Source of the DNA: Bacillota bacterium
Lineage (GTDB): Bacteria; Bacillota; Limnochordia; DTU087; JAAYGB01
Assembly (NCBI GenBank): GCA_012727955.1
Contig: JAAYGB010000042.1
Location: 1 to 42,650, forward strand
Reading direction: 5' to 3'
Length of the DNA stretch: 42,650 bases
In this document: positions 4,511 through 26,817 of the stretch, piece after piece
How the letters are laid out: every line of letters begins with the position of its first letter
How positions within the stretch are numbered: the stretch's first letter is position 1
Translations under genes and position numbers: made by a program
Notes under the pieces: model-generated
Database searches by the model: none
What the model was told of the DNA's origin: nothing
Seen by the model: the letters and a program-made list of their open reading frames with translations, nothing else

Positions 4511-5518
4511 TCAATTGTCCGGCCGGAGAACATGAACAATATTAGGATATTCAACAGCCACGATGGACTTGGTTCCATCGGCGGAGAAAACACCGGCCGC
4601 GGAAGAGGCCAAGCCCCATCCTAAAGATACCCGGGAGCTAGTGGTGACTAACTTCCCTTCCTGCCAGGCATAGACCTGTACCCGACCGCGATCATCGGCT
4701 ACCACCACCTGATCGTCCTGGGAAAAGACCGTTAACCCAAAGACCGCGGCCGGGCTTAATTCCTGACTGGACACCCGGGTCAAAGTATCTCCCTTGATGA
4801 TCCAAATCTGGATAGTTCCCCCTTGTGTGGTCTGCCCCACATCAATGACCAGGTCACCGACGGTACCTCCGACCACAACTCCCGAAGCTAAAGCCCGAAT
4901 CACACCGATGGGCGGACTTTCAGCTACGACCTCAAGACCCTGGGGAGTCCACTTCAGCACCCGCAAAGCTTCTGTGGCAAAATAAGCGTTTTGGTCTACT
5001 ATCTGGGTCAAAGCCACCAGATCCGGTTTTCCCGGTCCCCCCTCAACGGCAGCCACTTCCTGAATGGGCCAAGGAGTCGTCCCCCGCCAGACTTCTTTTA
5101 GGACCCCTGACTGCCATTGATACATCAAAGTGGCCTTATCGCCTAATACCAACACTTGGGGAGAGCCTGTACCCATAAAATCTCCGGCGGTGACTGCAAT
5201 ATGTCCCGGACTGTCATACAGGTTAGGGCTTTTCCAGAGCACCTCAAATCCGTCGTGACCTAAGGAAACTACATAGAAGAAGGTTTCCCGGGCTTCATAG
5301 TTCCTTCCCACCAACAAGAGCTCATCCACACCATCACCGGTGACATCGGCCGCGGCCACTTGAATGATGGAATCCGCCAAGAAACCTTCAGTGGAAAAGG
5401 CCACCTTGTAGTTGCAGAGATCGGCAGCTTGGGCTGCAACTGCCATCACAAATACCAAGATCATGGCGAAACACCCGGCAATCCCCGGGACTTTTCCAGT
5501 CAATGACACCATTGGCAA
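4511..5518 (-). CDS. Secreted FG-GAP/VCBS-like repeat protein
   Basis: First gene of the nag operon. From the TTG at 5518 (GGGGAG six bases upstream) the product begins with a signal peptide: a short charged stretch, a hydrophobic core GCFAMILVFVMAVAAQA and cleavage near AQA-AD. The mature part is built of beta-strand repeats such as AADVTGDGVDELLLVG and VTAGDFMGTGSPQVLVLG, typical of VCBS/FG-GAP beta-propellers in exported proteins. No enzyme motif is visible. An alternative TTG at 5563 also has a strong AGGAGG site and would add 15 residues. The gene end abuts or overlaps nagA. The role is unknown; surface binding of a glycan is a guess from context. Confidence 0.7.
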   Translation of the reverse strand: MPMVSLTGKVPGIAGCFAMILVFVMAVAAQAADLCNYKVAFSTEGFLADSIIQVAAADVTGDGVDELLLVGRNYEARETFFYVVSLGHDGFEVLWKSPNLYDSPGHIAVTAGDFMGTGSPQVLVLGDKATLMYQWQSGVLKEVWRGTTPWPIQEVAAVEGGPGKPDLVALTQIVDQNAYFATEALRVLKWTPQGLEVVAESPPIGVIRALASGVVVGGTVGDLVIDVGQTTQGGTIQIWIIKGDTLTRVSSQELSPAAVFGLTVFSQDDQVVVADDRGRVQVYAWQEGKLVTTSSRVSLGWGLASSAAGVFSADGTKSIVAVEYPNIVHVLRPDN

Positions 5519-5683
5519 ATCTAGCTCCCCTCTACACTTTGACAAATTGTTACTAGATTCCAACTGTTCTCCTCCTGCCAAAGCAACTCCTGCTTGACAC
5601 AATTTGCATAAACCAAAGCTTTCCGGGAACACTTCTATGGGTACTACTTTATTTGCCTAACTACATTGGCAGGAGGGGATCGT

Positions 5684-6634
5684 TTGTCAACATCATCACA
5701 ACCAATGGAAATTCCTGATCCCTCGCCACCCATGTTCGGTTCAGACGATTGGATTCAGTCAGACCATCCCCCTACTGCAGCAGGCGTACCCCATGGGGGC
5801 GGTCAACTACCGGATCGATACGGAGAAGACGGCATCACCTTGCTCATGCGAGAACCGGGCTGGGTGTATGCATACTGGGAGATCACCGATACAACCCGCC
5901 AGTGGGCTCTGCAGCAGTTCGCTCCAGAGGCTAGGGATCAAGTCAGAAGCGTCATCCGCATACTCAGCTTTGAGCCCAAGGGTCAGGGGGAGCATGGGGA
6001 GCAGGAATTGGTGGCCTTTGAGGTCCCCAGTCTCAATCACTCCTGGCATATCGGTATTGACCGAGAGGCTGGAACCGTTGCCGCCGTCTTCGGATTTTTA
6101 GGCCCCGACGGCAATTTCGTGGAAGCCGTCCGCTCCCGAGCCGTGACTGTGCCCTCCGGCAGCGAAAGCCCCTTCATCGATGAGCAGTGGCTCACCCTCC
6201 GAGCCCTATACGAATCCCGAACTGTGGGAACGCAATCGAGCCCGGGGCTCTGGATGAGTCGGAGTCTCACGCAGCACATCTTTGGGCACAAACTTCCCTT
6301 CAGTCCAGGCATATCTAGTCCGGGTATTTCTAGCCCGGGAGTCTTTGGCACGGCGCCGACGGAGTCCTGGGAACTTGCCGGCACCAATCCCGATGATCTT
6401 GGGCTTTCCGTTGACACCCGAGTGATTCTCAGCGGTAGGGCCAGGCCGGGAAGTAAGGTCACAATTAACGGCGACCCGATACCGATAGCCTCCGACGGCA
6501 GCTTTACGGTGCAGTATCAGCTGGACGACACCACTTTGGTGCTGCCCATCGAGGCCCTATCCGCCGATGGTCAGCAAAGGCTTCGGATTACTCCCGTGAT
6601 TAGACGGGACACCTATTTTCAGGAGAGCCGGTAA
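5684..6634 (+). CDS. DUF4912-domain protein of the alpha-glucan locus
   Basis: The start is TTG 5684, chosen because AGGAGGGG lies five bases upstream; a TTG at 5666 has no such site. Residues about 45-165 match DUF4912: DGITLLMREPGWVYAYWEIT is the typical opening. The middle has a short Gly-Ile-Ser-Ser-Pro repeat (three near copies coded around 6300-6340). The C-terminal 75 residues, from SVDTRVILSGRARPGSKVTI, form a compact beta-domain resembling Ig-like modules. No signal peptide is seen. DUF4912 proteins are often found beside GH57 branching enzymes, as here. A carbohydrate-binding or scaffolding role in glycogen synthesis is inferred from context only. Confidence 0.8.
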   Translation: MSTSSQPMEIPDPSPPMFGSDDWIQSDHPPTAAGVPHGGGQLPDRYGEDGITLLMREPGWVYAYWEITDTTRQWALQQFAPEARDQVRSVIRILSFEPKGQGEHGEQELVAFEVPSLNHSWHIGIDREAGTVAAVFGFLGPDGNFVEAVRSRAVTVPSGSESPFIDEQWLTLRALYESRTVGTQSSPGLWMSRSLTQHIFGHKLPFSPGISSPGISSPGVFGTAPTESWELAGTNPDDLGLSVDTRVILSGRARPGSKVTINGDPIPIASDGSFTVQYQLDDTTLVLPIEALSADGQQRLRITPVIRRDTYFQESR

Positions 6635-22562: not shown

Positions 22563-23339
22563 CTAGGATACCTTATTGGCCGCTTCTCGTAATTTATCTA
22601 TCGCCCTTCGCTCCAGTCTCGACACATGCATTTGAGATAAATCCAGCTGCTCGCCTACCTGCTGTTGAGACAATTCCTCAAAATACCGTAGGAATAGGAT
22701 CTTTTTGTCCCGTTCGTCCAGTGACACCAGGGCATCCTGCAGACTGAGACTTTCGATGACGTAATCGAAGGATTCATCATCTTGACCTAAATAGGTGTAG
22801 AAGGTGCCGCTATCCTCATCGTTACCAGAGCCTAGAGTGCCATCCAAGGATAGGGGAAAGCGATTGTTGACTACCCGATCCGCTTCCTCAATCTTCTCAC
22901 TGGAAACACCCAGTATCTCCGCCATCTCGTCACGGGATGGAGTGCGCCCATACTCACTGACGTAGCTTGCCTTGGCCTGTTGCAGTTTCAGACTTAAGTC
23001 CTTGACTCCCCGAGGTACCTTTAGATTCCAGGCTTTGTCACGGAAGTGGCGCTTAATCTCGCCCACGATTGTCGGAGTAGCATAAGTTTCGAACTTGACA
23101 CCGCGGCTTGAGTCATAGCGTTGAATCGCCTTGAGCAAACCAATCATTCCCACCTGGACTAAATCATCTAGCGGTTCGCCCCTTCCCTCAAACTTACGAG
23201 CCAGAAATTGAACCAAGCCATAGTACTTCTCAACCAACTGGTCAAGGGCTTCATCGGAAAGCTCTTCGCGATAGCCGTCCGAAGTCTCCACAGGTCTCTG
23301 AAAGTCCGAGTTGTCTCTTATGTACTGCATTTCAGCCAT
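22563..23339 (-). CDS. SigB/SigF/SigG-family RNA polymerase sigma factor
   Basis: 258 residues from ATG 23339, seven bases after AGGAGG. Region 2 reads DLVQVGMIGLLKAIQRYD and FETYATPTIVGEIKRHFRDK, region 3 TPSRDEMAEILGVS, and region 4 LSQQQVGEQLDLSQMHVSRLERRAI. The region-4 helix-turn-helix looks closest to SigB, but family members controlling sporulation (SigF, SigG) are similar. These factors are normally held by an RsbW/SpoIIAB anti-sigma kinase encoded beside them; no such gene is here. A near-consensus sigma-A promoter lies about 160 bases upstream. Its regulon is unknown. Confidence 0.9.
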   Translation of the reverse strand: MAEMQYIRDNSDFQRPVETSDGYREELSDEALDQLVEKYYGLVQFLARKFEGRGEPLDDLVQVGMIGLLKAIQRYDSSRGVKFETYATPTIVGEIKRHFRDKAWNLKVPRGVKDLSLKLQQAKASYVSEYGRTPSRDEMAEILGVSSEKIEEADRVVNNRFPLSLDGTLGSGNDEDSGTFYTYLGQDDESFDYVIESLSLQDALVSLDERDKKILFLRYFEELSQQQVGEQLDLSQMHVSRLERRAIDKLREAANKVS

Positions 23340-23496
23340 GCTCCATCCTCCTTCTGCAATAGATGATTTCCCCTCACTCACCTCTCAGTGACTGAAGATG
23401 TCCAGGTCGCAAGCCTGCCCCTAAAGAGGAGGCGCTCGATGGACTTCCTTCCTGGTTAACCTGCCGTATTTAAGTAGTTCTTCCAACTGTACTACA

Positions 23497-23547: not shown

Positions 23548-23858
23548 CGATTTCACATCTTTGCAACATGCCTTTTCGCATAAACCCGACGTTTTTGCAG
23601 GAAAAACCGGATTCCATCCGCGATTTTCCCCTTCAAGAACTTTAGATAGCGATAATTGTTACTAATTCGTTGCTGCTTTTAGCTGCTGCCGGTGAAAGGA
23701 TTTCAGCTCCAGATTACGATGAGCAGGGCAGGAAAAGGTCTATCCCTGCGCCGAAAAGAGTAAAAGGTCAAGCCTGTGAGCTCAGGCATCATGCTAACTT
23801 ATGCAGCATAGAGATTTATGTGAACCATGGACACGTCCACCATTGGGAGGTCAGGGTT

Positions 23859-24554
23859 TTGTCAACTTTAGAGATGAACGGGGTTACCCTCATGGGATGC
23901 ACCCAACAATACGATCTCAGTGTTAGTTCCGGGCAAGTGGCCATTGTCTATGGCGAAAGTCCAGCAATTCGCCAGAGCTTGCTCCGGGTGCTTTCCGGTG
24001 AAGATCTTCCGGCCAAGGGCGCCATCAGCCTCGACAACATGAACTTTTCCCAAATGAAACCCAAGCAGCGTCGGGAAATCCACGAGAGGAAATTCCGCTA
24101 CATAGCTAAGAACGATCTGCTGCTGGACTATCTCACCGCCGTGGAGAACTGCCTTATTCCAGAGGTCAATTTCACCGGGATTACCATCGAAAGGACCAAG
24201 ATTTTACTGCGGAAGTTAGGAGTAAATAGTCCCGAAAGACGGATGCCCCATGAGCTTTCTCCCCTGGAGCGAAGGCTAGTGGCGGTAGGTCGAAGTCTAA
24301 GGCTGAATCCCAAGGTCTTGCTGGGATATGAACCCGCCGGTGGATTAGATGCCCAGGATGCCGAAGCACTATATATCTCCTTGCAGCGAATTGCCAGGGA
24401 ACACAAACTGATCGTCATCACCACTGAAGCGGCTCTTCCCCCTTGCGGAGAAAATCAAGATTTTCTGCTACTCAAGCTCCATGAGCCAAAGATGTCGATG
24501 ACGACCCCAAAAAATGATGAAGGACAAGCAACACCCAGGGAGGTGATGCAATGA
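23859..24554 (+). CDS. Degenerate ABC-type ATPase (pseudo-ATPase), LolD/FtsE/MacB-like
   Basis: 231 residues from TTG 23859, seven bases after GGGAGGT; this gives the normal ABC ATPase start and length. The fold is complete by pattern, but each catalytic motif is changed. Walker A is GESPAIRQS (32-40), with Lys replaced by Arg38 and two glycines lost. The Q-loop Gln aligns with Lys84 (YIAKNDLLLDYLTAVEN). The signature is LSPLERR (133-139) rather than LSGGQ. Walker B is KVLLGYEPAGGLD with Asp replaced by Tyr157, although Glu158 and the D-loop remain. The H-loop His is Thr (VITTEA). ATP hydrolysis is therefore unlikely. The gene is intact and its stop overlaps the permease start (ATGA), so it is probably maintained as a non-catalytic partner. 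It could still bind nucleotide weakly. Confidence 0.82.
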   Translation: MSTLEMNGVTLMGCTQQYDLSVSSGQVAIVYGESPAIRQSLLRVLSGEDLPAKGAISLDNMNFSQMKPKQRREIHERKFRYIAKNDLLLDYLTAVENCLIPEVNFTGITIERTKILLRKLGVNSPERRMPHELSPLERRLVAVGRSLRLNPKVLLGYEPAGGLDAQDAEALYISLQRIAREHKLIVITTEAALPPCGENQDFLLLKLHEPKMSMTTPKNDEGQATPREVMQ

Positions 24555-25723
24555 GATTCACTTTCGGATTGTACGCTAATCGCCGGGCCAAAGCACTGCT
24601 ATTGCCTGCGCTGATCACTGCCACTGCCGTTGCTTTCATCGCAATGGGAAGTCTGCTGTTGACCGTCAACCCCGTCACCCAGGCCTGGCTGGAGACAAGG
24701 GCCGATTACTGGGTGGAAATATCGGGGCAAGTGACTCCCTCAGATATTCACGCCGCGCTGCCCGAGCTCACGGTGGATGTGATTCCTGCAGCGGTGGCTC
24801 ACCTATCCTACCCGCTGTTGGGAGGAGAAACGGCGCTCTTGCCGGTGTATGGACTATCACCGGAGGATACCGAGGCCCTGTTGGCCCATACAGGAAGCAC
24901 CACCGAAGGGGTCCTGCCCCAAGAAGATGGCTCTGAGCCCGGTGGGATGTACCTGCCGGAGTCCTTCCTGGCGGCAACTAACCTCAGGGTCGGTGATGAG
25001 TTCGAGAATGCCAATCCCTACCAAGAACCCTTTTCCTTTCTAGTAGAGGGAGTGGTTACCGGACCAATCCCCTTTGGATTGGCTACCTTAGAAACCGTCG
25101 CTAGTCTGCCGATCCAAGAACCGGTTCTCCTGGTACACTCCCCGGAAATGGAGGCTAGGCAATTGGCAGAAGAACTGCAGGCGGTCTTAGCGGGCCATGG
25201 ACTGATTCGAATCCTGTCACCGGAGTACTTTCAACACCTACAGCACGAACGGATGCGAACCTACCGTCTAGCCCTGCCCATGAGTCTAGTTACCTTACTA
25301 GCACTGATGACCATTGGTTTATCCTGGGCCAGCAGATCCCAGAGTGCCCTACTGGCAACGGAGCAGGCTTTGGCCAAAGTGTACTACCATTCCTTAGGTC
25401 CCTCGCTGTTTCGTCCCCTAGCAGTAGCTGCTCTCTGCGGCGGCTTAGGTTGGGTTTTCGGACTGGTCCTTGGACTGGCGGGCTCCGTAGGTATAGGCCG
25501 CCTGTGGTTATCCTCCCGGGGGCTGGCTTACACCCTCCCCTGGGGGACGATAGCGCCATCACTGTTTCTAGGACTAGCCCCAATATTTGCCGCTTTATAT
25601 CGTTGGAGTCAGGCCCTAACCCCAGATCTCTTTGATTTCCTCGGCCAAGAGCAGCAAATCAGCCGAGCCGCACCGGATTCTACCGACCTCAATCACGGCT
25701 CCAATATAGCGCCGGGAATCTAA
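24551..25723 (+). CDS. FtsX/MacB/LolE-type ABC permease
   Basis: 390 residues with the topology of this family: one membrane helix (about 15-38), an extracytoplasmic domain of about 200 residues (40-238), then three helices (about 240-260, 290-314, 332-350) and a polar cytoplasmic tail. The outer domain includes ALLPVYGLSPEDTEALL and LPESFLAATNLRVGDEF, which resemble the MacB periplasmic core. Such permeases do not move small solutes but transmit ATPase action to extracellular partners, such as wall hydrolases in FtsEX or lipoproteins in LolCDE. Its only partner here is the degenerate ATPase with a four-base overlap. A two-tier hairpin follows the stop. Confidence 0.85.
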   Translation: MRFTFGLYANRRAKALLLPALITATAVAFIAMGSLLLTVNPVTQAWLETRADYWVEISGQVTPSDIHAALPELTVDVIPAAVAHLSYPLLGGETALLPVYGLSPEDTEALLAHTGSTTEGVLPQEDGSEPGGMYLPESFLAATNLRVGDEFENANPYQEPFSFLVEGVVTGPIPFGLATLETVASLPIQEPVLLVHSPEMEARQLAEELQAVLAGHGLIRILSPEYFQHLQHERMRTYRLALPMSLVTLLALMTIGLSWASRSQSALLATEQALAKVYYHSLGPSLFRPLAVAALCGGLGWVFGLVLGLAGSVGIGRLWLSSRGLAYTLPWGTIAPSLFLGLAPIFAALYRWSQALTPDLFDFLGQEQQISRAAPDSTDLNHGSNIAPGI

Positions 25724-25827: not shown

Positions 25828-26730
25828 TTACATATTGTTTGGAATAACTCCACTGGCCACTGGGATATTGCCTGGTTCGTCGCCAATAATGTCGGGCTCG
25901 GCAGTGATCTCCACGGCCACGAAGCTGGTGCTGGGATTTTCCGTTTCTATCCTCCCCACGTACAGTCCACCGGAGACAAGGCTCATAGCCCCAGAAATGT
26001 AATCGCCCGCTGCATCCTCCAGCCACAATACATACTGAGTCGCATCGCCATCGAGCTCTTCAGGAGCCGGAGCATTATCCATGATGCCAATCACCGTATC
26101 ATCGACGTCATTGAGCAGTACCCAGGCCTCGACGTCGGCCACTGCCTCCAGCTCAGAAACTGTCAGCACCAGACACCGGCGTTCGGGGCTTGGAGGAGGT
26201 CCTACCTCCGTGGGAATACAGATTACCTGACCCACCTGCAAACGCATTGGATCAATACCGGGGTTGTATTGGATAATCAAATCCACTGTGACGCCATACC
26301 GTTGGGCCAGGGAATAGAAAGTATCCCCGCTGCGAATGGTGTACAGTATACCCGGACACTCCTTGGGCGGCGGAGCCATCCCAGGAATGCAGATGACTTG
26401 ACCCACCTGTAACCGATTGGGGTCGACCCCAGGGTTGGCTGCCAGCAAATCATCGAGGGAAACATTAAAGCGTCGAGACAATTGGTAGAAGGTATCTCCT
26501 GCGCGAATGGTATACAACTGTCCCCCGGGGCAGTCGGGTTCGGGAGCGATTCCCGGAAGACAGATCTGACTGCCCACCACCAAATTAGCGGGATCAACGT
26601 TGGGATTGGCGTCTAACAAGTCTGCCAAAGGTATGCCAAATTCCCGGGCGATGGCCCACATGGAGTCTCCCGACCGAATTGTGTACAGCCGTCCTCCCGG
26701 GCAGGGCGGGACCTGTGACCACATCACCAT
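25828..26730 (-). CDS. Triple-LysM protein with RskA-like C-terminal domain
   Basis: 300 residues from ATG 26730 (AGGAA nine bases upstream). Three LysM repeats occupy about residues 14-58, 70-114 and 127-171; each starts like LYTIRSGDTFY and is bracketed by two cysteines (CPGG before, ICLPG or ICIPG after), suggesting one disulfide per repeat. The C-terminal part (about 180-300) has WVLLNDVDDT, QYVLWLEDAAGDY and a late FVAVEITAEPD, a pattern like the extracellular end of RskA-type anti-sigma factors, but with no membrane helix or zinc-binding part. No signal peptide is present, as in spore-coat LysM proteins such as SafA. Binding to peptidoglycan is likely; the rest is inference. Confidence 0.8.
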   Translation of the reverse strand: MVMWSQVPPCPGGRLYTIRSGDSMWAIAREFGIPLADLLDANPNVDPANLVVGSQICLPGIAPEPDCPGGQLYTIRAGDTFYQLSRRFNVSLDDLLAANPGVDPNRLQVGQVICIPGMAPPPKECPGILYTIRSGDTFYSLAQRYGVTVDLIIQYNPGIDPMRLQVGQVICIPTEVGPPPSPERRCLVLTVSELEAVADVEAWVLLNDVDDTVIGIMDNAPAPEELDGDATQYVLWLEDAAGDYISGAMSLVSGGLYVGRIETENPSTSFVAVEITAEPDIIGDEPGNIPVASGVIPNNM

Positions 26731-26817
26731 CGACAACACTTCCTTTCCGCCTGATATAGGATCGGGTACCTAAGAGTTTGTTCCCTACATGATATGTGTC
26801 GATGGTCCTTTGGTGAC

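Follow-up and report, generated by a model that had tools for sequence, protein, structure and literature searches.

A type VII-like ABC gene pair in a Bacillota bacterium whose ATPase-like subunit has lost its nucleotide-binding motifs

The window analyzed here is the whole stretch of 42,650 nucleotides, an entire contig of a draft genome (2.27 Mb, 66 contigs, 97% complete) from a Bacillota bacterium of the class Limnochordia. It carries a two-gene locus in which an ABC ATPase-like subunit is followed by a candidate permease (Table 1). The ATPase gene begins with a TTG codon at position 23859, placed 8 bases 3' of GGGAGG, and ends with a TGA stop at 24552-24554. The permease gene begins with an ATG at 24551, downstream of GGGAGGTGAT, and its stop codon lies at 25721-25723. 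The two genes overlap by ATGA and both have good ribosome-binding sites. An earlier sequence-only reading had described an uninterrupted ATPase frame with a strong ribosome site and the ATGA overlap, and its coordinates and frames were all correct on re-check. Codon statistics favor these frames, the other two same-strand frames being negative, and the 63 codons upstream of the TTG are not coding-like, which supports position 23859 as the start.

The pair is flanked by genes that are possibly sporulation-linked, a statement about location that implies no functional tie. On one side, a gene at 22563-23381 (minus strand) encodes a sigma factor of the SigB/F/G family. A near-consensus sigma-70 promoter (TTGACA-17-TATACT; 23525-23497, minus strand) lies upstream of it and is divergent from the ATPase gene. 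No synteny around this sigma gene was found in eight genomes of the same order. On the other side, a gene at 25828-26739 (minus strand) encodes a LysM protein with three SafA/ExsA-like stretches. This gene and the permease gene converge, and between them lies a long, near-perfect hairpin of about -32 kcal/mol, which has no T-run directly 3' of it on the plus strand and gave no match in an Rfam search.

Table 1. Features of the ATPase-permease locus and of its relative in a genome of the same order
Feature	Position	Strand	Evidence
Ribosome-binding site GGGAGG of the ATPase gene	23845..23850	+	sequence
ABC ATPase-like subunit (231 aa, starting with TTG) with replaced nucleotide-binding motifs	23859..24554	+	Pfam, NCBIfam, motif alignments, AF2, Foldseek
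Degenerate Walker A GESPAIRQS, residues 32-40	23952..23978	+	sequence, alignment
Q-loop position, Gln replaced by Lys84	24108..24110	+	alignment
Degenerate signature LSPLE, residues 133-137	24255..24269	+	alignment
Walker B Asp replaced by Tyr157; catalytic-Glu position E158 kept	24327..24332	+	alignment
Ribosome-binding site GGGAGGTGAT of the permease gene, within the ATPase gene	24538..24547	+	sequence
Four-TM permease, 390 aa, distant type VII (FtsX/MacB) relative (supported via the L161 bridge)	24551..25723	+	hydropathy, charges, bridge to L161 permease
Outer-domain motif VEGVVTGPIPFGLATLE, counterpart VSGVISGPVPIGAASFE in the G003 permease	25043..25093	+	unique to both among all open frames compared
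Strong hairpin, possible terminator	25744..25800		fold z = -6.3; 1 copy in genome; no Rfam match
Two-gene type VII-like pair, G003:C92, locus L161, order permease-ATPase	permease 5362-6489, ATPase to 7153		sequence comparison

The residues that mark an active ABC ATPase, namely the Walker A Lys and Gly, the Walker B Asp, the LSGGQ signature, the Q-loop Gln and the H-loop His, are all replaced in this subunit (numbered with the TTG as M1). The Walker A motif GPSGSGKST of homologues reads GESPAIRQS, its Lys becoming R38, and the signature LSGGE reads LSPLE. The H-loop position falls on T189 in some alignments and on E190 in others, with no His there, and the D-loop GGLD is kept. Alignments were made to solved nucleotide-binding domains (NBDs), to ∼40 ABC ATPases from the class, the same genome and one archaeal contig, and to 19 from genome and viral contigs. 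The register is ungapped through Walker A, Q-loop, signature and Walker B, and the ∼40 homologues retain these motifs with few departures. Every substitution named in the sequence-only reading (R38, K84, LSPLE, Y157 and the lost H-loop His) is present in this register. Eight substitutions (at G35, G37, K38, S39, Q84, G135, G136 and D157) jointly require at least 15 base changes, so the subunit has diverged, and a frameshift or isolated sequencing slips do not account for its state. Judged from these alignments, the residues for phosphate and Mg binding, gamma-phosphate sensing and dimer closure are lost in the window NBD.

The subunit scores 44.4 bits against Pfam ABC_tran (cut-off 25), as befits an ABC NBD fold. 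By the curated NCBIfam cut-offs it is neither a LolD nor an FtsE equivalog, its scores of 80.6 and 68.8 bits lying far under the respective thresholds of 307.75 and 264.85. An AF2 model built on a 20-sequence alignment reaches a pLDDT of 80.2 and a pTM of 0.77, although that alignment holds intact homologues only and may bias the model towards the canonical fold. A Foldseek search with this model returns LolD, YbbA, BceA, MacB and FtsE, LolD being the best. The window subunit is predicted to keep an NBD fold of the LolD/MacB/FtsE type. LolD, the type VII ATPase of LolCDE, is also its best NCBIfam and PDB-sequence match and resembles it in NBD length and in the kept stretches LTAVEN, ERRLVAVGRSL and EPAGGLD. 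In contrast to LolCDE, the window pair has replaced nucleotide motifs, a LolD score far short of the cut-off, and one permease in place of LolC and LolE. The label 'FtsEX-like' given by the sequence-only reading proves too specific, as the NBD scores higher for LolD than for FtsE and falls far below both cut-offs.

Hydropathy and charges give the permease a cytoplasmic, basic N-terminus, TM1, an acidic outer domain of 197 residues (40-236), TM2, a basic loop, TM3 and TM4. Four TM segments, the first two separated by a large outer domain, are the type VII layout and match the described topology of MacB and FtsX (PMC5985334). The permease has no Pfam or NCBIfam match at E<=1 and no PDB chain match; no FtsX or MacB_PCD model matches it directly, and it is absent from an FtsX search of its own genome. 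Compared alone with 37 MacB-type permeases, it gives no significant score (2 of 200 shuffles equal it and the reversed sequence comes close). Its best non-self match among all open frames compared, at a marginal E of 0.007, is a permease in another genome of the same order (G003). The local score between the two is 79, against a shuffle mean of 39, and none of 500 shuffles reaches it. The G003 permease scores 33.4 bits against Pfam FtsX (cut-off 25.5), and its best PDB matches, YtrF and MacB, are weak. A joint profile of both permeases matches MacB-type permeases with an E of 2.2e-6 over 296 columns, a signal that may owe much to G003. Type VII homology is reached through this intermediate, and the window permease is supported as a distant FtsX/MacB relative solely via the bridging G003 protein. 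The FtsX/MacB kinship proposed from sequence is borne out through this bridge, direct family matches being absent. Two other leads were rejected. A single-sequence AF2 model of the permease has a pLDDT of 41.6, so a fold search on it is meaningless. A match in genome G004 (34% over 68 aa) is due to chance, as it lies antisense to a valyl-tRNA synthetase frame and contains stops.

The G003 pair resembles the window pair in permease length and in the shared motif V-G-V--GP-P-G-A--E. It differs in its permease-first order, in a permease that passes the Pfam FtsX cut-off, and in an ATPase whose motifs (GPSGSGKST, FIFQQ, LSYGE, ADEP, VTHD) are intact for Walker A, Walker B, Q-loop and H-loop. The signature LSYGE and the D-loop ASVNPE of this ATPase are unusual. 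The intact G003 ATPase indicates that the dead state was derived in the window lineage, or is at least not general to the group. Within the order, this ATPase is the top match to that of the window, and others in the class score higher.

A second dead ATPase was not found among the matches aligned from 73 class genomes, 398 phylum genomes and public collections. No close orthologue of the permease appeared in the same class and phylum genomes or among genome contigs, viral contigs, plasmids and phages. All these searches reach only close to moderate relatives, and the G003 permease escaped the one made in the class. Among the genomes compared, no other belongs to the family of the window genome. 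The best phylum match of the ATPase (G442, 32%) was set aside, having intact motifs and adjoining an 867-aa frame that resembles two FtsX units and is unlike the window permease. The sequence-only reading had named as support for its claim the same substitutions recurring across genera, always beside this permease. That recurrence did not materialize: there is no second dead copy, and the nearest permease relative adjoins an intact ATPase. Searches of the open-licence literature likewise found no type VII system with a dead NBD.

With a probability of a little under one half, the locus can be read as a fast-diverging type VII-like pair in which the NBD, now a pseudo-ATPase, has been retained as a docking subunit that does not depend on nucleotide. 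The alternative that survives best, although it is rated unlikely, is a decaying remnant in which transporter function was lost and both genes are under relaxed selection, with no stop fixed yet. This was addressed by simulating neutral decay of an intact paralogue from the same genome (contig C40), which was mutated by substitutions only, without indels, until 9 of the 11 motif residues had changed. For the ATPase alone the median was 7 stops and only 0-0.7% of runs were stop-free. For the ATPase and permease frames together the median was 20 stops and the minimum 8 in 300 runs. Indels, if simulated, would make decay more visible. Since stops arise in more than 99% of neutral runs, the frames were held by selection while the motifs were lost. 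They were therefore kept by selection through most of the divergence, a conclusion that concerns past and not present-day selection. The stops that simple neutral drift to such motif loss nearly always leaves thus speak against decay, as does the preservation of both ribosome sites, the overlap and the four TM segments.

Other features speak for a remnant. Both proteins are highly diverged, and no other gene tested has an in-frame coding score as low as that of the permease. At columns conserved in at least 80% of 34 homologues, the window ATPase keeps 9 of the 23 that belong to the nucleotide site and 25 of the other 66. This equal retention rules out a preferential loss at the nucleotide site and indicates that the entire ATPase is diverging fast. 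At the 20 nucleotide-site columns conserved at 90%, every homologue retains at least 17. The nucleotide site has lost its special constraint, the rest of the ATPase also being far from the family. In a tree from which the G003 ATPase was left out as a duplicate, the window branch measures ∼10 changes per column, where the median is 0.16, and at this length its placement is unreliable. The even column loss and the extreme branch also fit general relaxation. Together with the single dead copy and the intact ATPase beside the nearest permease relative, which is likewise a point for a remnant, they count against a kept pseudo-ATPase.

A less probable explanation, regarded as quite unlikely, is that an intact NBD from another locus either forms a heterodimer with the dead NBD or takes its place. 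The genome does hold intact LolD-like ATPases on contigs C36 and C40, and complexes with one degenerate site are known. In BmrCD (PMC7828314) and MsRv1273c/72c (PMC12038006), catalytic motifs are lost in an NBD as they are here, but a second consensus site is kept, whereas the window pair has no co-encoded working NBD. The locus itself encodes a single NBD and a single permease, and the two closest intact ATPases adjoin permeases of their own. The Walker motifs and the signature are also lost together, which would affect both composite sites of a heterodimer.

That the subunit still binds or hydrolyzes nucleotide through the non-canonical residues R38, K84 and E158 is very improbable. E158 and the GGLD loop are kept and an Arg stands in place of the Walker A Lys, but the P-loop glycines, the Mg-binding Ser/Thr, the Walker B Asp, the Gln, the signature glycines and the His are jointly lost. 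In the AF2 model, the helix begins at residue 35, ahead of R38. An assembly or consensus error, conceivable in a draft of 66 contigs, has a negligible chance, as the register is ungapped, most substitutions take two or more base changes and codon usage resembles that of the neighbours.

For the kept pseudo-ATPase, then, the maintained frame, the predicted NBD fold and the permease kinship stand, while recurrence fails and no partner for the proposed switch or sensor was found adjacent. Under this preferred reading, the pseudo-ATPase NBD would stay docked to the permease, stabilizing or positioning it, and the complex, working independently of ATP, would be a static scaffold or tether and neither a pump nor a switch driven by ATP. 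The outer domain of the permease may hold or sense something in the envelope. FtsEX is among the closest known systems. The two pairs share the ATPase-permease order, the NBD fold and the TM1-outer domain-TM2-TM4 topology. In FtsEX, complex formation and partner recruitment survive the loss of ATP binding or hydrolysis and output does not (PMC7468199; PMC7828314). By inference, a complex without ATP-dependent output could still scaffold or sense. The window pair departs from FtsEX in its low FtsE score, in FtsE needing ATP for output, and in the absence of a hydrolase or adaptor gene among the neighbours scanned. In Bacillus subtilis, CwlO function requires that FtsE both bind and hydrolyze ATP (PMC7828314), so a version working without ATP would need a different task.

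The fuller proposal, that the pair forms a functional, nucleotide-independent type VII-like complex whose only co-encoded NBD is a structural pseudo-ATPase and which serves, without using ATP, as a scaffold or sensor in the envelope, is tentative and on balance doubtful. The pair is real and odd, a single instance with a putative function and for now a candidate system. Should it be functional, the loss of its ATPase need not end the usefulness of a type VII-like ABC complex, and the scaffolding role would be separable from the mechanical one that has been discussed for FtsEX and MacB. As a single-genome case, the window pair provides a test object for this idea, and the intact G003 pair from the same order is its natural comparison.
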